A stretch of 64,000 nt of DNA, taken from positions 1-64,000 of the forward strand of contig CAOKHZ010000017.1 of NCBI GenBank assembly GCA_948468385.1. The letters run 5' to 3'. The stretch is from an uncultured Faecalicatena sp. (GTDB lineage Bacteria > Bacillota > Clostridia > Lachnospirales > Lachnospiraceae). This document shows positions 3,755 to 64,000 of the stretch, one piece after another; the first letter of the stretch is position 1; each line of letters begins with the position of its first letter. The notes under the pieces were generated by a model. That model worked only from the letters and a program-made list of their open reading frames with translations. It searched no databases and had not been told where the DNA came from. Position numbers and translations under genes: made by a program.

Positions 3755-5074
3755 CTACAGATATTCATACAAATAACTTTCCATCTTCGGCACCCACCAG
3801 TCCAAATATCCCGCTTTCGTCGGATGAATGGGGTCGTACATATATCGAAGATACTCCCGCTTTGAAACCGCGTTCATCTCTTCATCGTCCCATAAGTTGA
3901 TGACTCCAATACCATACTTCTCCTGCAATTTCAACAACGCGTCCACCATCGCCTGATATTCCTGACTTTCATATTTCGTACCCGTGTAAAATACAACCGG
4001 ACAATCCCATGTTTGCCTCGCATACACGATGACATATTCCATTGCCCCGATAATCGTCTGCGTGTCAAAAGAATCCAGTTCCCTGGAATCACTGATTTCT
4101 CCCAGCGGCAGTTTTTTCGTCGCGTCATTGGTCGACAACTGGCAGACGAACGCGTCAAATTTCTCATCCGAATCAATATTGTTTAGCATCCGGTGAATAT
4201 AAGAATCCTCATTTTCATCCACCAGTGTCGTGCCGCTCACCGCCTCCTTGACATACTCGCAAGAATTTCTGGCAGAAAGATATTCCACGAAGGACACGCC
4301 GTTCGCCCTCGCGCCGTATGTCACGGAAGAACCCAGGTAACAAATCCGTTTCCCCGCCAGCGGGCTGTCCGCCAACGCCCCTACATTGTCCACGTCATAC
4401 CTGGCGTTCACGCCGGCATCCTCATCATATAGAAACGTACCATTCTCCGGATCTAATGTCACCACCACGCTGTTTTCATGTCCGCTGTGCCAATAAAAGA
4501 ATCCCTCAAAATAATCCAGCGGATCCTCGTCCAATCCTTCCATGCTATGAACCCGGTCGCCATCCGACGCTTTTCCCGAACCATTCATCATCCCCGCGCC
4601 GTCCGTAAGGTTTCCCCAGTTTTCCGTAAAGCTGCAGTCCATTGGCGGTTCCAGCGTCACCTGACACCCCTCCCGCGTGTATTCCCCGGTAAAAACATAC
4701 CGCAATTCAAACGTTCCGTACACCTTGCCCCCGGATTTGTATTTTTCAGGATTGCCCTCCTCGTCAAGCGTGCCTGTCAATTTGGTGTACTCATAAGTCC
4801 CGTCGTCATTTAAAACCAACGTATTGACGGCGCTCATTTTGACCCCCTCCGTCTTCTGCCCATAATCCGTGTTGCCCGCCACGTCCTTGATTTCAAAGGT
4901 ACAAGTATACGTCCCTTCTTTTGCTTCTTTGCCCACCGTCTCTTGACCGTTCATTTCCCGGCCATTTGTATCCCCACCGTCCGGTTCCTTGTCCGCCGCA
5001 CAGCCGCACAATATTCCAATGCATAATATCATCACGCACAGCCGCACGGCTTTTTGGAAACTTTTTCTTGTCAT
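3755..5074 (-). CDS. SGNH/GDSL-type hydrolase lipoprotein
   Basis: 439 residues. A basic N-terminus, hydrophobic stretch and lipobox ILCGC (lipidated Cys25) mark an exported lipoprotein. Residues about 55-140 form a beta-rich module with the pattern NDDGTYEY...YGTFE, also found in the two other lipoproteins of this operon. The C-terminal half is an SGNH hydrolase: GSSVTYG (nucleophile about Ser250), AVSGTTL (Gly), QLSTND (Asn316) and DPIHP (Asp414, His417). Such enzymes remove acetyl or other acyl groups from polysaccharides. It is the last gene of the leftward operon, 21 bp behind another SGNH lipoprotein. The precise substrate is unknown; a surface-glycan or dietary-glycan deacetylase is the likely role. 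Confidence 0.88.
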   Translation of the reverse strand: MTRKSFQKAVRLCVMILCIGILCGCAADKEPDGGDTNGREMNGQETVGKEAKEGTYTCTFEIKDVAGNTDYGQKTEGVKMSAVNTLVLNDDGTYEYTKLTGTLDEEGNPEKYKSGGKVYGTFELRYVFTGEYTREGCQVTLEPPMDCSFTENWGNLTDGAGMMNGSGKASDGDRVHSMEGLDEDPLDYFEGFFYWHSGHENSVVVTLDPENGTFLYDEDAGVNARYDVDNVGALADSPLAGKRICYLGSSVTYGARANGVSFVEYLSARNSCEYVKEAVSGTTLVDENEDSYIHRMLNNIDSDEKFDAFVCQLSTNDATKKLPLGEISDSRELDSFDTQTIIGAMEYVIVYARQTWDCPVVFYTGTKYESQEYQAMVDALLKLQEKYGIGVINLWDDEEMNAVSKREYLRYMYDPIHPTKAGYLDWWVPKMESYLYEYL

Positions 5075-5095: not shown

Positions 5096-6193
5096 CTATT
5101 CCCAAGTCAGATTTCTTTCCTGACAAATCCTTCCGAGTTCTGTCCGCATCAGCTTTGCCAGTTTTTCATAGCCTTCTGGGGTCAGATGAAGCTGATCCTC
5201 AATCCAATATTCCGCAACCGCCTCTGTTCCGTCATTCGCGGACAGCGCGTCCTTGCAGTCCAAAAAATAAAAATTCTCATGTTCCTCACAATACGCCTTC
5301 AGCCACTCGTCACAAGCCACCATTCCGTCATGATATTCCCCGAAATAACGAAGCGGATTCGGAGTCGCCGACATAATCACAATCGCCGTGTCCGGCAGAT
5401 TTTTTGCCGTGTCCTCATAAAACTTTTGTTTGATTTCAATTACTTCCTCAAGGCCGTTTCCATCCGTCCAGTCATTCGTGCTGCTCATAAATACAATCAT
5501 GTCGGGGTTGCTTCCATACAAAAGCCGCGGCGCGTAATAGCTTCTGGTGGCATCGCTTGACCCGCCAAAAGACTTGTTATAAATCGGAAATTCGCTCAAA
5601 TCTTGTTCCATCGTGGTCCATTTGACGAAATTCGAACCGCCGTAAAAAATAATCCCACCTTCCGTCCCCTCGTATTTTTTTACAAGCTGTTCTACCGGCT
5701 CACGGAACGTCTCAATTCGGTTCAACTCGTTATAAGTACTCAAATCACCGACCTTGCAGCGCATCGCAATCTCCAAATCCAGTTCTCCCATTTTGGCATC
5801 ATAGACGAAATTATAATGGGATTTATCCTCATCGGGTAACGCGTCATACGTTTTCCCGTCAATGTTAAGCGTTATTTTCTCACCTTCCACCTCTTCCCAA
5901 CTTCCCGTCTTGTTCTCGTCACTTTCCAGGATCAACGTTCCATCCGCATAGCAGTAAATCACATAATTGGCTATCGTCTCCTTATCCTCACTGATATAAT
6001 ATCCGGTAAATACATACAACTTCTCTTTTTCTTTCACCGCTTCGTCCTCCTCCACTTTCTCTTCCTGTCGTCCTTTCCCCTCTCCGTCTTCATCATAATC
6101 GTCATCCGGTGCCCCCTGACATGCCGCCAGAAGCATGACTGCAATAATAAATGCACATCCATACGCCAGTCCCTTTTTTATTTTTTCACCCAT
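5096..6193 (-). CDS. SGNH/GDSL-type hydrolase lipoprotein
   Basis: 365 residues with a signal peptide and lipobox LLAAC (Cys25), a highly acidic linker (about 30-58), a beta-rich module with YADGTLIL and GSWEEVEGEKITL (about 59-147), then an SGNH hydrolase domain: IFYGGSNF (nucleophile about Ser187), NKSFGGSS, SSTND (Asn240) and DQLHLT (Asp333, His336). The catalytic set is complete, so an active esterase acting outside the membrane is expected. The hydrolase domain is of a different SGNH subgroup from the downstream paralogue, suggesting two distinct acyl linkages rather than simple duplication. It lies 120 bp after the GH3 gene in the same orientation. Confidence 0.88.
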   Translation of the reverse strand: MGEKIKKGLAYGCAFIIAVMLLAACQGAPDDDYDEDGEGKGRQEEKVEEDEAVKEKEKLYVFTGYYISEDKETIANYVIYCYADGTLILESDENKTGSWEEVEGEKITLNIDGKTYDALPDEDKSHYNFVYDAKMGELDLEIAMRCKVGDLSTYNELNRIETFREPVEQLVKKYEGTEGGIIFYGGSNFVKWTTMEQDLSEFPIYNKSFGGSSDATRSYYAPRLLYGSNPDMIVFMSSTNDWTDGNGLEEVIEIKQKFYEDTAKNLPDTAIVIMSATPNPLRYFGEYHDGMVACDEWLKAYCEEHENFYFLDCKDALSANDGTEAVAEYWIEDQLHLTPEGYEKLAKLMRTELGRICQERNLTWE

Positions 6194-6313: not shown

Positions 6314-9229
6314 CTATGCTTTTTTCTCTTTTCTCTTCGCATTCACCAGAATCGCCACGCCGGCCAATGCCAACACTCCAAATCCAACCTGCAATCCGAT
6401 GAGTAGCCGCTGCCACCAGGTCGTCAGCTCGACCACCCGGTCATACTGCGACAGCCCGTTCATGGCAGAACTGTTTACCTGCACGTATAGCAGGCGATGT
6501 ACCGCCTGACGCATCAGTTGGCATACATAGGGGTCGTCCTGATATTCATAAAGCGACTCGTCGGTCAGTTCAATGCTGTTGACCCCGTCCCAGATGTCAC
6601 TGCCGCCCTGCAGTCCGACCAGCGAATCGGTATACGTGGAATTTACGGTACAGTCCGTGATCACGTAACCTGCAAATCCCCACTCGCCACGCGCCACGTC
6701 ATTTAAAAGTCCCGCGTGCGCGCCGCCCCATGCCGTCCCGATTCGGTTCATGACCGTCATGTAGCCATGGACGTTTGCCTCCACCGTGGGGATTTCGAAC
6801 GCCGTCAGGTAGATTTCCCGGACGGCCTGCTCATTGCTCCACGTCGTGACTCCCGCCCTATTCGTTTCCTGGTCATTCAGCGCGAAATGCTTCAGCAAGA
6901 CATAAACGCCCTTTTCCTCAATCGCCGCCACTTCCGGTGCCGCCATGGCTCCCGACAAAAAGCCGTCCTCCGAGAAATACTCATAGTTTCGTCCGCTGTA
7001 CGCGGTACGGTGAATATTGGCCGCCGGGCCATAAATGCCATGCGTCCTGGACTTCAAGCCCTGCTCGCCGATGCATGCCCCAATGTCCTTCATCAATTCC
7101 GTGTTCCATGTCGCCGCCATGATCACCTCCGCCGGAAATGCCATGCCGCTGGAACTTCCGTTGATGAAGGAATCCGTGATTCCCTGCGGCCCGTTCGTCT
7201 CCTTGGTGGCCGGCTTCTGAATGGACGTTATCACCTTTGTATTATGGAAGGAATTGGTAATCAGCGTCACCTGCTCGTCAAAACTCATCTGGTCAAGCAA
7301 AAGCTCCCAATCCTCGTCATCATAATCCTTGCCAATCAGGTTCGCCAACATGATCTCGTTCATCTGCCCGTATTTTGGCATTTCGTAACCCGATTCCGTC
7401 TCAAAGTCATTTATGATGTCCGCCGCCATCGCCTCCGTCAGGGTAATCGAAACCGGCCGTGGATAAGTTCCTGCCCAGTCGCTTCGCGACAAGTAAACAA
7501 TCTCCCCGTCATAATTTTCATATGTATTCAAATCTGTATCATCAAAATGATTCGTGATTTTCTCACCGGTCGCTCCCGTCGAAACCAACCTCGTTAATTC
7601 TTCCGCTTGTGCCTTTCCGATTTCCAACTCATACGCGTCCGCCTCGCTTACCCCCGCATCCGCATCATAACCTTTCGCCACGAGAATCTTGTCCACCGCG
7701 TCATGCGCAGAATCCGCGACCGTCAAATAATACGTCCCCTCTTCCACGATATAACTCTTTTCCTTCGTGGCATCATAAGTTCTCATCAGATACTTTGGAA
7801 TGGAGATGGTCACCGTCTCCGTGGCTCCCGCGTCGAGTTCCCCGGTCTTTCCAAAACCAACCAAATCCACCGCGGATTTCTCTACCTTGTTTTCCACGTC
7901 ATACTCCGTGTACGGCTTTTGCAAATATACCTGCACGACCTTTTTCCCCGCAACTTTCCCGGTATTGGCAACGGTCACTTCCACCGTATACTCCTCCTCG
8001 TCCTCCGTCACCGTATAATCGCGATACTCGAACGTCGTATAACTCAGCCCGTGTCCAAACGGGAATGCAACCTCCGAGTGATAATCATACCCAGCCGTGT
8101 TGCCTTGTCCCGTCACGCTGTCCTCATATCGTGTCTCGTAATATCTGTATCCGACATAAATGCCTTCCTGGTATACCACGTAGCTTTCGTTGACCTGCTT
8201 TACCGGATTGTCATCCGTAAGTCCCATTTCCGCCGCATTGGTAAACACATAATCGCCAAAATTCTGCATCGCGGGCGCACTCATGTTGTCATGGCAAAAC
8301 GTGTCCACCAGTGCGCCGGACGGATTTTCCCCGCCCGTCAGAATACGCGCCACGGAATTCAAGCCATACTGGCCGACTCCGCCAATCCAGAGACAAGCGT
8401 CAATCCCATAGTCCGGATTTTCCAGGAAAGCGCAGTTTAAGGCATTGGAGGAATTGAGCAGGACAACCACTTTTTTCACGGTACCCTTTTGCTTCAAAAT
8501 TCCCACCTGCGCCAGCATTTCTTTTTCTTCCTGGGACAATGACAAGTAATCGCCGTTTTCACCATCGGTTCCGGTTCTCCACAAGTCGCCGCCTTCCCCG
8601 CCGCAACGGGCAATAACTACGATGGCCGCGTCGCCGTAGGCCGAGACCGAAGAAATCACCTCGTCTCCGTAAACGGACCACGGAATCTCGTTTATCTTGT
8701 ATTCTCCCTTGGTCGCGCTGCCATCGATGTCCGTCACCGAACGCACGTATTCGCTGCCCGCGCCCTCCAGATAAAAATTCCAGAGCGTCTCATTTACGTT
8801 AAGCCCAGCCCCGGACAGCGCGTCCTTCAACGTTGGCGCGGTGGACGTGTCCACCGAACCGGAACCGGTGCCGCCATAAATGATGTCCACGGCAGAATGA
8901 GAAAAACAGCTCACATTGCTTCCCCCCGAAAGCGGGAGGGCATCGTTCTCATTCATCAAAAGAACGGCCCCTTCCGCTTCCACCTGCTCGCAGATTTCAC
9001 GCTGATAATTGTCAAAGTCCTCCACCGAATCCCACTCCGACTTAAAATATTCCGTGTCCTCGCCATGGTCGGACGTCTCAATCCGATATGTCTCACAACC
9101 CAAATAAGAGTTGATGGATACCGCGAATGAATTTGCCACCGCCGAGCCAATCAAGATCAGGACAAACAACGGCACGAAAATAAACGTCAATACTTTTCCT
9201 AGCTTTTTATTACTCAATAGTTTTCCCAC
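6314..9229 (-). CDS. Membrane-anchored glycoside hydrolase family 3 with inverted domain order
   Basis: About 971 residues. Hydrophobic segments at both ends (near the N-terminus, VLTFIFVPLFVLILIG; near the C-terminus, LLIGLQVGFGVLALAGVAILV followed by KRKEKK) should anchor both termini with the enzyme outside. The GH3 domains come in swapped order: the alpha/beta sandwich first (CLWIGGVGQYGLNSVARILTG region), then a fibronectin-III-like domain (VQVYLQKPY), then the TIM-barrel domain with KHFALNDQETNR and the nucleophile in YVITDC (Asp near 859). Ruminococcus albus and Butyrivibrio beta-glucosidases share this order. I prefer the GTG start at 9229 (GGGGG nine bases upstream, 16 bp after the previous gene); a TTG at 9286 would overlap that gene. 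Likely a beta-glucosidase or related exo-glycosidase. Confidence 0.85.
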   Translation of the reverse strand: MGKLLSNKKLGKVLTFIFVPLFVLILIGSAVANSFAVSINSYLGCETYRIETSDHGEDTEYFKSEWDSVEDFDNYQREICEQVEAEGAVLLMNENDALPLSGGSNVSCFSHSAVDIIYGGTGSGSVDTSTAPTLKDALSGAGLNVNETLWNFYLEGAGSEYVRSVTDIDGSATKGEYKINEIPWSVYGDEVISSVSAYGDAAIVVIARCGGEGGDLWRTGTDGENGDYLSLSQEEKEMLAQVGILKQKGTVKKVVVLLNSSNALNCAFLENPDYGIDACLWIGGVGQYGLNSVARILTGGENPSGALVDTFCHDNMSAPAMQNFGDYVFTNAAEMGLTDDNPVKQVNESYVVYQEGIYVGYRYYETRYEDSVTGQGNTAGYDYHSEVAFPFGHGLSYTTFEYRDYTVTEDEEEYTVEVTVANTGKVAGKKVVQVYLQKPYTEYDVENKVEKSAVDLVGFGKTGELDAGATETVTISIPKYLMRTYDATKEKSYIVEEGTYYLTVADSAHDAVDKILVAKGYDADAGVSEADAYELEIGKAQAEELTRLVSTGATGEKITNHFDDTDLNTYENYDGEIVYLSRSDWAGTYPRPVSITLTEAMAADIINDFETESGYEMPKYGQMNEIMLANLIGKDYDDEDWELLLDQMSFDEQVTLITNSFHNTKVITSIQKPATKETNGPQGITDSFINGSSSGMAFPAEVIMAATWNTELMKDIGACIGEQGLKSRTHGIYGPAANIHRTAYSGRNYEYFSEDGFLSGAMAAPEVAAIEEKGVYVLLKHFALNDQETNRAGVTTWSNEQAVREIYLTAFEIPTVEANVHGYMTVMNRIGTAWGGAHAGLLNDVARGEWGFAGYVITDCTVNSTYTDSLVGLQGGSDIWDGVNSIELTDESLYEYQDDPYVCQLMRQAVHRLLYVQVNSSAMNGLSQYDRVVELTTWWQRLLIGLQVGFGVLALAGVAILVNAKRKEKKA

Positions 9230-9245
9230 GTCGATTTTCCCCCAT

Positions 9246-9797
9246 TTAATTAAAGGAGCTGTCTTGTGCTTCTCCCGCCGGAACAAATCCTTCCGTCACG
9301 CACCTCATCTCAATCGGCCGAACAAAGCTTGCCAGGGAAACTTCCATCCCGAACAGATATCCTCCATTCTCGTCTTTCTCAAGCTCGTATTCCCGCGTGA
9401 AGGTTCCGTCCTCGTTTTCCATGTTAAAGCTTAAAACGCCGTCCGCCTCGCTCCATGTCCCGGTCGCCGTATCCTCATGGTCTTCCACGTCCAGGAATAC
9501 AAGCCCCGGCTCTACCGTCAAAGTGCCGTCATCATACATGTTCAGCACCCACTCAAATCTCACGTCGCTTGCGCCGCTTGCATACGCGCCCTCAAAAGAA
9601 TAAGTCACCTCGGGTTCCTTCTTTTCTTCTTTATCTTCTTTTTGCGTATCGTCATCCGCGTTCGTGCCATATTCCACTTTTGAGTCTGAGCCGCCCTTGT
9701 CACCGTCTCCGCCTTTGCCGCACGCCGCCAGGCCAAACACCAACATCGCGGCCAACATTACAGATACTACCCTTGAAATCATTGTTTTTTTCTTCAT
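9246..9797 (-). CDS. Small lipoprotein with lipocalin-like beta module
   Basis: 183 residues: signal peptide with lipobox LAAC (Cys26), a Gly/Asp/Lys/Glu-rich linker (about 27-60), then a beta-rich module with MYDDGTLTVE, TATGTWSEADGVLSF and a closing EMRCV segment. The same DGT...GTW/GSW...EMRC/AMRC layout occurs in the two SGNH lipoproteins downstream, so this protein is that module on its own. It has no recognisable catalytic site and may bind a ligand or glycan. It is the first gene of the LytTR-controlled operon, with AGGAGGAAAAGTAA before its ATG. Function is not known. Confidence 0.8.
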   Translation of the reverse strand: MKKKTMISRVVSVMLAAMLVFGLAACGKGGDGDKGGSDSKVEYGTNADDDTQKEDKEEKKEPEVTYSFEGAYASGASDVRFEWVLNMYDDGTLTVEPGLVFLDVEDHEDTATGTWSEADGVLSFNMENEDGTFTREYELEKDENGGYLFGMEVSLASFVRPIEMRCVTEGFVPAGEAQDSSFN

Positions 9798-9838
9798 TTA
9801 CTTTTCCTCCTATGGAATTTTTCTTTAAATTTTTCTTT

Positions 9839-9867
9839 ATCATACAAGCAAAATCCAAAGTCCGCGA
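9839..9867 (-). promoter_or_regulatory. Activator-type promoter of the SGNH/GH3 operon
   Basis: On the minus strand a good -10 box TATGAT (9839-9844) has only TCGCGG 17 bp upstream (9862-9867), a poor -35 element. The nearest LytTR box begins ten bases further upstream, as expected for a promoter that needs an activator. Confidence 0.55.
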
Positions 9868-9876
9868 GCGTTTTTC

Positions 9877-9968
9877 CGTAAACCGACGCTTCTTTTTCGC
9901 AAACGAATTTGGCTTTTCGCCAACGGTTTTCTTTTTTTCGTAAACTGCCGGTTCTTTTTCGTGAACGG
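9877..9968. promoter_or_regulatory. Array of five LytTR-type binding boxes
   Basis: Nine-base boxes start at 9877, 9898, 9918, 9939 and 9960 (spacing 21, 20, 21, 21). On the minus strand they read CGGTTTACG, TCGTTTGCG, CCGTTGGCG, CAGTTTACG and CCGTTCACG, each followed by a run of A. They fit the known LytTR-domain consensus of imperfect direct repeats with GTT at the centre and about two helical turns apart. The array fills the gap between the LytTR regulator gene and the divergent lipoprotein operon. Confidence 0.8.
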
Positions 9969-9980
9969 CACCCCCTTGAT

Positions 9981-10009
9981 TTGCCGGTGGGAAAATTTTA
10001 TGATATAAT
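9981..10009 (+). promoter_or_regulatory. Promoter of the LytTR regulator-kinase operon
   Basis: TTGCCG (9981-9986) and a perfect TATAAT (10004-10009) are 17 bp apart, 28 bp before the regulator start codon. The last LytTR box ends 12 bp upstream of the -35 element, so the system probably controls its own expression. Confidence 0.7.
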
Positions 10010-10037
10010 ATGAGCACTTGACGAGGGAGGGAATTCC

Positions 10038-10742
10038 ATGCTTGAGATCGCGATTGTCGAAGATGAACAGATTGCCGCCCGGCAACTGCTGGCAGGATTG
10101 GAACGTTGTTCGAAAGAACAAGGGTTTTCATATCACGCACGGACGTTTTCCGACGGGCTTTCATTCATCACGCAATATCGCCCGGAATATGACATCGTGT
10201 TCATGGACATCATGCTGCCTCAGCTAAACGGCATGGAGACCGCAAGGCATTTGCGAAAGCTCGATCCTCACGTCTGTCTGATTTTTACGACCAACATGGC
10301 ACAATTTGCCATCCATGGATATGAGGTGGAAGCCGTGGACTTCATTTTAAAGCCGGTCACGTACAGCCGTCTTTCCTCCTTGTTCCAAAAGATTTTACAA
10401 AGACTGAACATCCAAAAGGGAATCGAACTGACCATCCATACGACCGGCGGCATCCAACGGATTCTGACCTCGGACATTTTTTATGTGGAAATTGCCGACC
10501 ACCTGCTGCTCTATCATCTGGAAAAGCAAAATATTGAATCATGGGGTACCTTGAAAAAAGCCCGTGAGGAACTTCCGCCGGAGACCTTTTCTCAGTGTAA
10601 CAAAAGCTGCATCGTCAACCTGTCAAAGGTAAAGACGCTTCAGGGAAATGAAATCCTCTTAGGCAACGCCGTCTTAAGCATCAGCCGGGGACGAAAAAAA
10701 GAGTTTTTGGCCGCACTTAACAACTACCTCAGGAGGGGATGA
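10038..10742 (+). CDS. LytTR family response regulator
   Basis: 234 residues: a receiver domain with acidic pair VEDEQ, phospho-accepting Asp in VFMDIMLP (about residue 56), Thr in FTTN and Lys in LKPV, then a C-terminal LytTR DNA-binding domain (about 135-230; ISRGRKKEFLAAL at the end). LytTR domains bind direct repeats in the minor/major groove in phase, which matches the five boxes just upstream. The ATG has AGGGAGG upstream. It overlaps the sensor kinase gene by four bases (ATGA). It most likely activates both its own promoter and the divergent SGNH/GH3 lipoprotein operon. Confidence 0.93.
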   Translation: MLEIAIVEDEQIAARQLLAGLERCSKEQGFSYHARTFSDGLSFITQYRPEYDIVFMDIMLPQLNGMETARHLRKLDPHVCLIFTTNMAQFAIHGYEVEAVDFILKPVTYSRLSSLFQKILQRLNIQKGIELTIHTTGGIQRILTSDIFYVEIADHLLLYHLEKQNIESWGTLKKAREELPPETFSQCNKSCIVNLSKVKTLQGNEILLGNAVLSISRGRKKEFLAALNNYLRRG

Positions 10743-12070
10743 ACATGAACTCCATTCCGTATTATATTGACTTTTTCAAGTTTACCCTGGAAACCGCGTT
10801 TGCTTGTTTTTGTTTCACGGGCAGGATGGAAAAGCGCCCCCATTTTTATCGGCGGTGTCTTGTCATGATATCCGCCATCGGCCTTTTGGTCATCCCCGTA
10901 TCGGCACTTGCCAGATATTTTATGCTTAGCGACTATGGTTTTAGCACTGCCGTCACCTACAGTCTGCTTTCCGTCATGGCCTTTTCTTTTATCTTTTGTT
11001 GCTATCGGGATTCTGTCTGGAACCTTCTTTTTTGCTGCATTTCCGGTGCCATGATTCGCATGTGCGCAAAGAAAATATTTGACATCTTTCTCATCGCCCT
11101 ACGTTTTTCCAACATTGACATCCGTTTATTTGCCAAGGGACGATTTGAACGTTATATTGTATATTATTTGATTTTCTTTTCTCTTTTTCTGGCAATTCAT
11201 TTCTGCTTCCGCAACATTTTCTACAAAGGGCACCTATTGACTCTGAACGGGAAACAATTCTCCGTTTACATCGTCATATTAGGCATCAACCTCATCCTAA
11301 ACAATCTGGAGCCGGTGCTTCTGGAAATCAATGCCAAATATTACGCGCTCCTGGTATTTTGCGAGATGACTTACTATATTCTAATTCTCTGCATGCAAAG
11401 CTTTTTGTTCCAAATGGCACAAGCCAAGTTAGAGGCGCACGATTTACAAGAACTCTGGCGGCAGGACCGACAGCAATACGAATTGATGAAGGAAAATATC
11501 GAAATCATCAACATCATGTGCCATGACCTGCGCCACCAGCTTCACAGCATTGGCAAGCAGACGCAGCTACCGCCCCAATTTATCGAGGAAATGGAGCACT
11601 CCATCTCCGTTTACGACAGCAAGTTCCAAACCGGAAACCAGACACTCGACGTCATCCTGACCGACAAGCATTTACGGTGTGACGCGGAGCGCATCCAGTT
11701 TACCTGCATCGCGGACGGGGAAAAGCTGAATTTCATCGAACACAGCGACCTGATTTCCCTCTTTGGAAACGCTTTGGAAAATGCTTTGGAATACGAAGTG
11801 ACCGTTCCAAACCCCGGGGATCGCTTTATCAATTTGCTGGTTCGGCAAAAAAATGATTTTTTGATTATCAATGTGGAAAATTATTTTGAGGGAGAATTAC
11901 AGATGAAAGACGGGTTTCCCGTCACCCAAAAACAAGACAAGACACTCCATGGATATGGACTCAAAAGCATCCAGCGAATCGTCAGAAAATACGAGGGGAA
12001 CGTGCATATTTCCAAGGAAGGAAACACCTTCCTTTTGAATATCCTCATTCCCCTCCCCAAAAGCACATAG
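10739..12070 (+). CDS. GHKL-type sensor histidine kinase (AgrC/VirS-like)
   Basis: 443 residues. The N-terminal half (about 5-225) holds six or seven hydrophobic membrane segments with short loops and no large extracellular domain; such sensors usually detect membrane-associated or peptide signals. The cytoplasmic part has the H-box CHDLRHQLH (phospho-accepting His about 262), an N-box FGNALENALE and a G-box GYGLKSIQRIV. Its partner is the LytTR regulator encoded just upstream with an overlapping start codon. No signal peptide gene of AgrD type was seen beside it, so the stimulus is unknown; it may be linked to the surface glycan handled by the divergent operon. Confidence 0.9.
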   Translation: MNMNSIPYYIDFFKFTLETAFACFCFTGRMEKRPHFYRRCLVMISAIGLLVIPVSALARYFMLSDYGFSTAVTYSLLSVMAFSFIFCCYRDSVWNLLFCCISGAMIRMCAKKIFDIFLIALRFSNIDIRLFAKGRFERYIVYYLIFFSLFLAIHFCFRNIFYKGHLLTLNGKQFSVYIVILGINLILNNLEPVLLEINAKYYALLVFCEMTYYILILCMQSFLFQMAQAKLEAHDLQELWRQDRQQYELMKENIEIINIMCHDLRHQLHSIGKQTQLPPQFIEEMEHSISVYDSKFQTGNQTLDVILTDKHLRCDAERIQFTCIADGEKLNFIEHSDLISLFGNALENALEYEVTVPNPGDRFINLLVRQKNDFLIINVENYFEGELQMKDGFPVTQKQDKTLHGYGLKSIQRIVRKYEGNVHISKEGNTFLLNILIPLPKST

Positions 12071-21654: not shown

Positions 21655-23484
21655 TCAATCTGATTTCATATCTCCTCCTGGCATTCCCCTGCCGTCCGGC
21701 ATCCCCATTTTGCCTTTCGTCTCTTCACTTCCACCAGACATTCCCATATTGCCATTCATCGTCCCCATGTCGGAAATATTGATACCCGTCGCGTCTACCA
21801 TTTCTCCTGCATTCTGCGTCTGCCCGTCCGAAGTCGAGGGAATGCGCCCGTCCAACTGCCCCGCCACGCTCTCTGCGCGCAGCAGGCAAAATTCCTTCAG
21901 CGTGTCAATCCCCGTCTCAAATTCCTCATACGTGCAAAATTTCGTCGGGTCTTTCTCGACATACGGCGAAATCAACTCCTTCACTCCGTCTATCATCTCC
22001 GCAAAATAACCACTGTCAAAATATGTTTCTACAAATTCTGCAAAATATTCATGGTATATTTGCGCGTACTCCTCACTAGCAAATATCCAGGAAAGCATCG
22101 GCCTGGATTCCACCGTCCCTCCGGATACCGGAGTATCAATTGGATAATTTACAAGCGTCTCCGCATCCTGCGCGCCTTGGAAACCGCCAAATGCCAGGTT
22201 GTAATCCCATGGAATCATCGACAGCCTCCCATCTTTTTCATAAAGATAATAATTGTGAATCATCGTTCCGGTATAGCTGTCAAAATTGCAGACAAAATTA
22301 TGAACCACGAAATAACGGATTACCTCGTCCACATCCACGACATCCTCTATATTTTCCTGTTCGTTCATTTGTTTCAACGAAGCAATCAAACGATCCTTGT
22401 CCGCGTCGGAAACATTCGTCTTGGCATTGTCAAAAATGTTTTGATAACTGGAATGTTCATCGTCCGTATAAATCAGGGACGTGTCACCGCTCCCCATGCT
22501 TCCGCCCATGAAGCCGGCCTCAAATGAGTTTTCGAAACCGTTCCCCGGCAGCTGTTGGCCATCCGGCATTTCTGGCGGTTCCTGCCCCACTTCGCCCTGC
22601 ATGCCAGGCATATCCGACATATCTGGAGATTGCTGCCCATCTGGCATCTCCTGACCATCCGGCATTTGCCGGCCACCAGGCATCTGTTGGAATCCCTGCC
22701 GGTTCGCATCCTCTGGCATTTCCGACGGTTCCTGGCCATTTTCCCAATCGGGCATTTCCGATCGTTCCTGACCCGCTTCACCCTCCGGCATTTCCAACTG
22801 TTCTTGACTGTCCTGCTGCCACTCGTCCATGTCAAACCTTGCTCCGGCTCCCCTGCCGCCGCCCAGGCTTTGGCTGTCCGGCTTATACAATTCCCCATAA
22901 TCCGCACCGTAATTCCGTTTCAGAAAGCTTTCCTCCACGGCCTCCACTGCCAAATACAGTCCCCAGTCCTCGCCATTGACCGTGAGGTAAGCGTAACTGC
23001 AAAGCGGCGCGTCCACGCCAAAATAGCCCATCATTTGATAGGAAAGATAATCCTTCATGTACGTGTTATCCTGAATAATATTATTGAGGCTCAATTTATC
23101 CAGCCCATAATAGCTTTGCGCGTTGTCATAATGGTCAAATTCAATTTTAAAGCTATAGCGGTCATTCCCGTAACTCTCCACCTGCGTCAGCGACGTATTG
23201 CCCTTGGCGCGAATGCCGACGTTCTTGCATGCCTCGTTGTCAATGACGACCGAGCAAAGCGTGTATTCCTCCGACATGCAAGTGTCGAGAAATCCCTCCC
23301 AGTCATCCATCACGATGTCAATGGTATGTACCTTGGAAACGTCAAACAAACGGGTTTCATACCCCATGTCCGTCGACGCCTTCACGATTCCCAGTTTTTC
23401 GCCATTCATGAATGTCACGGTCAATATCAATGAAAAAATGAGTACCGCGCAGCAAACTTTATCAATATATTTATGCGTAGACAT
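21655..23484 (-). CDS. CotH kinase family protein with Met/Pro/Gly-rich insert
   Basis: 609 residues from the ATG at 23484 (GGAGG six bases upstream). An N-terminal hydrophobic segment (VCCAVLIFSLILTVTFM) suggests export or anchoring. The CotH fold is seen in GIRAKGNTSLTQ, YSFKIEFDHYD, GLDKLSLNN and, after an insert, SMIPWDYNLAFGGF. CotH is a protein kinase of Bacillus spore coats; relatives in non-coat settings are widespread. Residues about 240-335 form a low-complexity insert of repeats such as GQEPSEMPE and GGRQMPDGQ, rich in Met, Pro, Gly and Gln, and the C-terminus has similar GMPDGRGMPGG repeats. It is the last gene of the VTC-DUF4956-CotH cassette, known in many Firmicutes; its joint function is not settled. 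Confidence 0.88.
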   Translation of the reverse strand: MSTHKYIDKVCCAVLIFSLILTVTFMNGEKLGIVKASTDMGYETRLFDVSKVHTIDIVMDDWEGFLDTCMSEEYTLCSVVIDNEACKNVGIRAKGNTSLTQVESYGNDRYSFKIEFDHYDNAQSYYGLDKLSLNNIIQDNTYMKDYLSYQMMGYFGVDAPLCSYAYLTVNGEDWGLYLAVEAVEESFLKRNYGADYGELYKPDSQSLGGGRGAGARFDMDEWQQDSQEQLEMPEGEAGQERSEMPDWENGQEPSEMPEDANRQGFQQMPGGRQMPDGQEMPDGQQSPDMSDMPGMQGEVGQEPPEMPDGQQLPGNGFENSFEAGFMGGSMGSGDTSLIYTDDEHSSYQNIFDNAKTNVSDADKDRLIASLKQMNEQENIEDVVDVDEVIRYFVVHNFVCNFDSYTGTMIHNYYLYEKDGRLSMIPWDYNLAFGGFQGAQDAETLVNYPIDTPVSGGTVESRPMLSWIFASEEYAQIYHEYFAEFVETYFDSGYFAEMIDGVKELISPYVEKDPTKFCTYEEFETGIDTLKEFCLLRAESVAGQLDGRIPSTSDGQTQNAGEMVDATGINISDMGTMNGNMGMSGGSEETKGKMGMPDGRGMPGGDMKSD

Positions 23485-62387: not shown

Positions 62388-64000
62388 TCACCCCACTAGC
62401 ACCTTGATCACAAAAGAAAACTCCTCGTCATCAAACCGATACTTTTCTTTCAACCCGGGTCCGCAACTGTTGGAGCCGATGCCATTTTGCGCCGCGTCCA
62501 AATGAAGCACGGTACTCCCGCATGACTCAAGCTCGTAATTGTGCTCCTTGTTTGTCAATTCCTCCGGCGTATAAATCGAAGCGTTAAAGCTAAACGTTTC
62601 CGCTCCTGCCGACGCGCCTTTCGAATTCATCCCGCCAAACGCCGTCAGCTTGTTTTTACCGCCTTCCACCACGACATAATCACAATCATAATGGCTTCCA
62701 TTTTCCTGCGGCCGCAAATAATCCTCGTGCATTTTCTCCACTTCCGTTTGATAAATGCCGTGGGCACAAGCCCTCCGCTTATCCCGATAGCTTTCCAGCG
62801 GCCCCATGCCACAATATGTGACGTGCGTCATTTCCCGCGGAAGGTACAAGCGCAGGCCAAACCGCGGCAATTCAGGAAATTCCCGGTTCCGTCTTACTTT
62901 TACGTCGAGAGACACGTTTCCGCACCCGTCAATTTCCCACGTCGCGTCCAGATTTAAAATTCGCTGCCTCGATACCGTCACCACCCCCATTTCACTGTGA
63001 ATCTGAAACGCCTTGCCCACCCATTTGCAATCCGTTTCATAGGCCCTCGTCTGCGTCTTGTTATATCCGGCTTTCAGCCATTTGGATTTCAACTGGCAGT
63101 CGTTGTCGGTGGGCGCACGCCAAATGTCAATTTCCATCGGACGGTCAAGCAATTTTTTATTTTCCATCTCCATGGAATGGAACACGCCGCGAAGCTTGTC
63201 ATAAACATAAGAAAAACGTTTGGTACAAACCGTGAGAAAACGGTCATCCTCTGACACGAGGTTCATTCTTGACGCATCGCACACGCCCGGTATACCGAAT
63301 ATTCCTGCCATGTCAGGCCCGTCTATTCCGGCATGCAAACTTGCCATGTCAGTCCCGTTCGCTCCGGCATGCAAACTTGCCATGTCATATCCGCCTACGC
63401 TTCTGAGCAACGACAGTTTTCGCCCCATCCGCACCACGTCCTGATTTCGCCCGTCCTCGTTTGGCAGCGGTACCTCGTCAAAACCCAATTCATGCCCCGC
63501 CGCAAGCGGCTCAGCATCACACTTTAAGTAATATTTTAACTTTAAAAAGCATTTTCCCTTTTCCGGAATCACCCGGCAAAATGCCCCGCCGCCTTGTTTA
63601 CACTGCAGTTCGCCACCCAGAAACGCCTCCGGAACCCGCAATGTCACGTTTCCCGTCGCGTGCGGTAAAATGGTTTGTAGTTCCACCATCTCGCGCTCCC
63701 CCGAAACAATGGTTCTGCCATCACATGTGACTTCATAAGTCACATAAATCCAGTCCCGCAAATCCGTGAAATTCAATTCGTTTCGCAGAACGACGACTCC
63801 GTTTTCCAAGTCCGCCACGACAACCCTGGCCGGACGATGGACGTTCTTGTACTCCAAAAGCCCCGTGTGCGGCCTCCGATTCGGGTATACCAGTCCGTCC
63901 ATGCAAAAATTCCCATCATGCGGATACTCCCCATGGTCGCCGCCATACGCGTACATTTCTTTTCCATTTTCCATCCTGCCCTTATAAATGGCATGGTCGC
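62388..64000 (-). CDS. lacZ: Beta-galactosidase, glycoside hydrolase family 2 (C-terminal part; cut by window edge)
   Basis: About 537 residues of the C-terminal half; the frame is open through 64000 and starts within the barrel. The edge segment DHAIYKG...YAYGGDHGEYPHDGNFCMDGLVY is the end of the GH2 TIM barrel, followed by GLLEYKNVHRPARV and the beta-sandwich and Bgal_small_N domains (IDIWRAPTDNDCQLKSKWLKAGY, LPRFGLRLYLPREMTHVTYCGMGPLESYRDK), as in E. coli LacZ. Catalytic glutamates are beyond the edge. Between the sandwich and the last domain, three imperfect 12-residue repeats (GxDMASLHAGxN) are inserted. It hydrolyses lactose-type beta-galactosides in the cytoplasm; a (broken) sugar symporter follows. 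Confidence 0.93.
   Translation of the reverse strand, partial: DHAIYKGRMENGKEMYAYGGDHGEYPHDGNFCMDGLVYPNRRPHTGLLEYKNVHRPARVVVADLENGVVVLRNELNFTDLRDWIYVTYEVTCDGRTIVSGEREMVELQTILPHATGNVTLRVPEAFLGGELQCKQGGGAFCRVIPEKGKCFLKLKYYLKCDAEPLAAGHELGFDEVPLPNEDGRNQDVVRMGRKLSLLRSVGGYDMASLHAGANGTDMASLHAGIDGPDMAGIFGIPGVCDASRMNLVSEDDRFLTVCTKRFSYVYDKLRGVFHSMEMENKKLLDRPMEIDIWRAPTDNDCQLKSKWLKAGYNKTQTRAYETDCKWVGKAFQIHSEMGVVTVSRQRILNLDATWEIDGCGNVSLDVKVRRNREFPELPRFGLRLYLPREMTHVTYCGMGPLESYRDKRRACAHGIYQTEVEKMHEDYLRPQENGSHYDCDYVVVEGGKNKLTAFGGMNSKGASAGAETFSFNASIYTPEELTNKEHNYELESCGSTVLHLDAAQNGIGSNSCGPGLKEKYRFDDEEFSFVIKVLVG
63328..63387 (-). repeat. 36-bp tandem repeat inside lacZ
   Basis: The 24-base sequence beginning CCGGCATGCAAACTTGCCAT occurs at 63328-63351 and again, unchanged, at 63364-63387, with a period of 36 bp; a decayed third unit precedes at about 63304. 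The unit keeps the reading frame and adds twelve residues each time. Confidence 0.8.

Follow-up and report, generated by a model that had tools for sequence, protein, structure and literature searches.

In a 64,000-nucleotide stretch of DNA from an uncultured Faecalicatena sp. (hereafter the window), the intergenic region 9798-10037 holds five direct repeats, flanked by leftward surface-protein genes on one side and by a rightward response regulator gene and kinase gene on the other. What reads these repeats, which of the two gene sets do they serve, and do all five of them count? An earlier note on this DNA had described five 9-base boxes between divergent promoters, and we found them as described: the plus-strand CGNNAAC cores start at 9877, 9898, 9918, 9939 and 9960, that is, at a spacing of 21, 20, 21 and 21 bp. 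On the minus strand the unit of the array (9878-9969) reads NNNGTTNNC and then an A-tract; each of the five can also be written NNNGTTNNCG, again followed by the A-tract. Since the A-tract comes after each GTTNNCG, the unit that repeats extends beyond nine bases, with at least four consecutive A per unit at a phase of ~21 bp. Considered as boxes, these are 9-bp direct repeats with three spacers of 12 bp and one of 11 bp. All five lie on the minus strand and point leftward, toward the lipoprotein-GH3-SGNH operon: promoter-proximal box 1 (9878-9886, TCGGTTTAC), box 2 (9899-9907, TTCGTTTGC; 21 bp from box 1), box 3 (9919-9927, ACCGTTGGC; 20 bp from box 2), box 4 (9940-9948, GCAGTTTAC; 21 bp from box 3) and box 5 (9961-9969, GCCGTTCAC; 21 bp from box 4).

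The array stands out from its surroundings. A motif-free chain finder gives it a score of 25 with 5 units, the best other chain in the 64 kb scoring 14; eight 64-kb Markov shuffles do not exceed 16, and when the local T-rich 230 bp are shuffled 3000 times 25 is never reached, although the best shuffle comes close at 23. The array is absent from the Tandem Repeats Finder listing (score 40), probably because the repeat covers only part of each unit. Tandem repeats with a 36-bp unit are present elsewhere in the window, at 22710-22808 (2.8 copies) and 63306-63387 (2.3 copies), and an exact 12-bp tandem duplication, AATTTTTCTTTA, is found in the leader at 9816-9839, ending at the leftward -10.

The rightward genes encode a response regulator (10038-10742, plus strand) with receiver (PF00072) and LytTR (PF04397) domains, and a GHKL histidine kinase (10739-12070, plus strand) with HATPase_c_5 (PF14501) and, in a simple scan, five hydrophobic segments. 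All three domains score above the Pfam cut-offs, as expected of a LytTR two-component system and in agreement with the claim that the regulator beside the array carries a LytTR domain. LRS regulators are not known to carry a receiver. Given the receiver domain and the GHKL kinase, we did not adopt a LytTR regulatory system (LRS; regulator plus inhibitory membrane protein) as the model for this locus.

On the minus strand, the array-proximal gene encodes a small lipoprotein of 183 aa (9246-9797) with a lipobox and without a Pfam match. It is followed by a GH3 enzyme (6314-9286), the true start of which may lie downstream of 9286. The GH3 domain order is permuted, in that the C-terminal domain (PF01915, 108-380) precedes PF00933 (707-880), and hydrophobic segments are located near both ends (residues 32-50 and 963-981); by sequence, the closest solved relatives of the enzyme are beta-glucosidases. 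Next come two GDSL/SGNH proteins, SGNH1 (5096-6193), which has a lipobox, and SGNH2 (3755-5074). SGNH1 is similar in its N-terminal part (5624-6193) to the small lipoprotein (33%, E 9.9e-5; 32% in alignment), and the leftward operon may share a surface domain between the two. Regulator and GH3 together make up a LytTR-GH3 pair, i.e. a LytTR regulator located near a GH3 that is secreted and has a membrane helix at its C-terminus.

Sixty genomes of relatives, besides the window's own genome (G000), yielded a single clear ortholog of the regulator, 81% identical, in G008; the next best match is 41% identical. A scan of named genomes gave one ortholog-grade match among 77 loci (L090), which is probably the same record as G008, hence one ortholog counted. 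Identities across the G008 locus are 86% for GH3, 71% for SGNH2 and 70% for the kinase; the small lipoprotein is 70% identical by BLAST and 76% in alignment. No match to SGNH1 was reported in the 19-kb G008 stretch by a search in which each reading frame is assigned its single best query. Because only one SGNH gene was matched there, the gene set common to the window and G008 consists of lipoprotein, GH3 and SGNH2; the leftward set as first proposed, with two SGNH hydrolases, is present in the window, but only one of the two is matched in the ortholog.

The two divergent promoters differ in quality. As the earlier note had it, the leftward promoter combines a good -10 (TATGAT, 9839-9844, minus strand; 5/6 consensus) with a poor -35 (TCGCGG, 9862-9867, minus strand), a position that we placed by inference from the -10, and the nearest box ends ten bases upstream. 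The G008 counterparts are TATGCT (4/6) and TCGCAA. The 17-bp spacer is the same in both genomes, as are the 10 bp between box 1 and the -35, the position of a LytTR activator site. The rightward promoter (9981-10009, plus strand) reads TTGCCG (9981-9986)-17-TATAAT (10004-10009), with 10/12 consensus bases (a full -10 and 4/6 of the -35), and TTGCTT-17-TATAAT in G008. A consensus promoter scan listed the rightward promoter and missed the leftward one because its -35 is too poor.

We consider it probable that the neighbouring LytTR two-component system uses the array as its operator and activates the leftward operon from it, with boxes 1 and 2 as a conventional site and three further boxes in phase. 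Since all boxes point at the leftward operon, an activator site for that operon is the most likely function. The GHKL kinase would sense a membrane signal and phosphorylate the regulator, which would bind the boxes head-to-tail. A dimer occupying boxes 1 and 2, directly ahead of a promoter without a proper -35, would recruit RNA polymerase and so switch on the small lipoprotein, the membrane-tethered GH3 and the SGNH enzymes. Boxes 3-5 would add binding on the same face of the DNA, raising occupancy or steepness, while regulator and kinase would be expressed from their own ordinary rightward promoter. The box array, its spacing, the promoter-like geometry, the gene content and the conservation in a single ortholog are observed. 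Binding, activation, its direction, co-transcription of the operon and the role of boxes 3-5 are what we infer here, the first two from geometry and conservation.

The conservation is that between the window and G008. All five box positions are kept at the identical spacing of 21, 20, 21 and 21, the odd 20 included. Box cores are identical at 42/45 positions and the two free positions per box at 6/10, compared with 24/40 for the spacers and 63/145 for the rest of the intergenic region (Fisher P 2.5e-9 for cores against all non-core positions, 4.5e-4 against spacers alone). The GTT core is kept in boxes 1, 2 and 4 but gone from box 3 (CTT) and box 5 (TTT). In the sole ortholog found, judging from the sequence, the array is kept together with regulator and operon.

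The two lost GTT cores bring up the possibility, on balance a doubtful one, that only boxes 1 and 2 function and that boxes 3-5 are decaying, functionless copies from local tandem duplication. It would also fit that no other region of the cassette family described below yields five units when the chain finder is run at its stricter threshold; the looser threshold gives chains of 3 or 4 in 14/39 regions (duplicates, ortholog and window included), which we take as noise. Functionless copies are harder to reconcile with core identity that extends over all five boxes and exceeds that of the spacers, with a distance between the leftward and rightward -35 that works out at 113 bp in both genomes, and with the precedent of CoxC, for which efficient binding is reported to require all three repeats (PMC11347149). 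The lost GTT cores favour a lesser role of boxes 3-5, while the positions next to them, being retained, speak for a role of some kind. Cooperative assembly on the boxes would be plausible. We find it rather unlikely that a head-to-tail row of regulators on five in-phase boxes gives a steep or stepwise response of the surface enzymes. If true, we know of no phased LytTR operator longer than this row, which would be located in a genus with multiplied LytTR-GH3 cassettes, several of which have drifted to private box sequences.

Do the boxes also act to the right? The earlier note had suggested a shared enhancer for both operons. Its leftward half agrees with the activator position of box 1; against the rightward half stand the orientation of the boxes and the quality of the regulator promoter (complete -10, 4/6 -35), which leave array control of that promoter no more than possible. 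A two-way operator, on which bound regulator would also repress or boost its own rightward promoter, is an option we hold with little conviction. Box 5 lies 11 bp from a rightward -35 that both genomes keep, and autoregulation has been reported for LRS operons (PMC6193735); yet box 5, like the other four, points away from that promoter, its G008 counterpart is without GTT, and the rightward promoter appears sufficient alone.

It is very improbable that the repeats are phased A-tracts giving intrinsic DNA curvature, and not protein boxes. While four or more A per unit at a phase of ~21 bp are what curvature would call for, the GTT and CG positions beside the tracts are conserved as well, spacing and promoter distance equal those of published LytTR sites, and the neighbour is a LytTR regulator.

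Motif scans bear on whether the boxes belong to this regulator. A box-pair sequence model (R1) was run over 12 genomes of the genus; with 150 of 1340 candidate places scored in G000 and 150 candidates in each of the other genomes, further sites could be missed. Among the scored candidates only the array (three hits) and its ortholog in G008 (two hits) come up at E <= 0.01, with another G008 array hit at E 0.0138 and the remaining listed hits at E >= 0.0186. The two model-positive genomes (2/12) are those with a close regulator ortholog, the next best regulator matches within the genus being at most 41% identical. A search for the same box array beside LytTR genes of related genomes, as the earlier note proposed, gives one case, G008, and at E <= 0.01 no other in this non-exhaustive scan. 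Hits in G006 (E 0.0507), G002 (0.59) and G007 (0.61) are weak, belong to a more distant system and were not counted. At the end of a kinase gene, these three genomes (L200, L207 and L213, respectively) have a pair of boxes at 21 bp, CCGTTTACG / CCGTTGRCG; the pair resembles the window's boxes and is near a more distant LytTR regulator.

A strict search for chains of at least three C.GTT..[CG] units in 54 LytTR loci (L001-L054) found only L013 and L025, overlapping copies of the window's own locus. This is a weak control because the ortholog array (L026) was missed too, owing to its CTT and TTT boxes, and came to light by alignment. We dropped a four-unit chain in L035, where the sequence is merely rich in pyrimidines. 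The three-unit chains of L075, L101 and L080 score 12-13, a level also reached by shuffles of 3.7 kb (13), the length used for this comparison. With 24 LytTR domains in the genome the boxes could in principle serve another regulator, but strict-motif chains confined to the window's own locus, weak control as they are, and box-pair matches confined to array and ortholog make this most improbable.

How singular is the locus? In the window's own genome we counted, besides the 24 LytTR domains, 64 GH3-like matches, from which 19 long membrane-type GH3 genes like that of the window were picked by hand; a LytTR gene stands no more than 3.5 kb away from 10/19 of them (1.1 expected; binomial P 2.4e-8) and no more than 6.2 kb away from 12/19. 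Starting from the regulators, 25/35 fetched loci have a GH3 match, a count that includes some stretches cut short by the end of a contig, a few partial or weak matches or ones several kb off, and two overlapping loci (L061 and L067). For L090-L109 the figure is 17/20, L090 repeating the ortholog. A tyrosine-phosphatase-family gene of the window (PF13350, 2462-3328) has a 68% identical copy in the same genome (L062, 7653-8486), where it directly adjoins another LytTR-GH3 cassette.

We then asked which repeat lags recur upstream of GH3 matches with E <= 1e-60 in 55 loci (L055-L109), excluding stretches under 150 bp; dropping the L061-region duplicate and the ortholog copies L070 and L090 reduced 37 regions to 34, which include orthologous cassettes and are therefore non-independent. 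At lag 21, a repeat of at least 10/12 is found in 7/34 regions (shuffle mean 0.43, maximum 3 in 300), with 4 at lag 20, 2 at lag 22 and 0-3 at other lags from 13 to 40. One lag-21 positive (L092, about 244 bp upstream) may lie in coding sequence. A clear repeat is missing at lag 21 in 27/34 regions and at lags 20-22 in 22/34. The repeat sequences vary between cassettes, e.g. CAGTTATGC, CCGTTTAGG and AATTACGGC. Given the recurring GH3/LytTR pairing and lag-21 repeats of differing sequence, we therefore count the window among the members of a cassette family that has expanded. GTGCCAG motifs upstream of GH3 in L056, L073 and L083 have offsets of 0, 11 and 20, counted by eye; in L083 (G008) part of the GTGCCAG block is duplicated, which may be a further case of box expansion.

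The array is a compact candidate operator for a recurring, little-studied switch in gut Clostridia, in which LytTR sensors stand beside membrane-tethered GH3 enzymes. How its boxes are read would show how many similar sensor systems per cell escape cross-talk, and whether the steepness of the response is set by additional LytTR boxes.

Control of such surface enzymes had been put forward as a new use of LytTR systems. As a linkage it is not new, since LytTR-GH3 pairs are already published, and the pairing recurs in the window's own genome. Three LytTR regulators of Butyrivibrio proteoclasticus (PUL7, 21 and 33) were reported in 2010, each of them close to a GH3 that is secreted and carries a C-terminal membrane helix, the same proximity as in the window; they differ in that the passage describing them names no box array, lipoprotein or SGNH partner (PMC2914790). 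The Roseburia polysaccharide locus Ros-7 is also described as having a LytTR regulator (PMC5320581).

At the level of the operator, the typical LytTR site is given as a pair of 9-bp repeats separated by 12 bp (PMC2714321; PMC2766830), and sites in LRS operons as strongly biased to 10 bp upstream of the -35 (PMC6193735). Boxes 1 and 2 match this repeat and spacer size (PMC2714321) and this -35 distance (PMC6193735). There is a likeness to the PlnC/PlnD promoters of Lactobacillus plantarum, where 9-bp GTT-centred repeats with a 12-bp spacer lie directly upstream of the -35 and are bound cooperatively; the PlnC consensus TACGTTAAT has its central GTT in common with the window's boxes, but these promoters have two repeats each and serve bacteriocin quorum sensing (PMC2714321). 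In agr P2/P3 of Staphylococcus aureus, as in the window, LytTR sites lie between two promoters of a single intergenic region and the activated promoters have imperfect elements, whereas the repeats are paired, one set per promoter, and not a single unidirectional run of five (PMC4227749). We considered agr and did not adopt it. Among the window neighbours scanned no agr peptide genes were seen, and the Pfam scan, which covered eight window proteins, showed no AgrB among them. A regulator printed as "AcrA", probably AgrA, is stated to bind multiple tandem repeats (PMC5859096).

The array has five repeats in place of the single pair of a typical LytTR activator site. That LytTR sites are normally single pairs, as the earlier note put it, is true in most cases, yet operators with three repeats have been described for RcoM1 and CoxC; these CO-sensing regulators work without a partner kinase, CoxC is a repressor, and their repeats number three against five here (PMC11347149). 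In the literature searched, to which subscription papers contributed little, we found no LytTR operator with at least four evenly phased repeats, a weak absence. With the LytTR-GH3 linkage itself already described (PMC2914790), the five in-phase boxes are what remains unusual about this locus.
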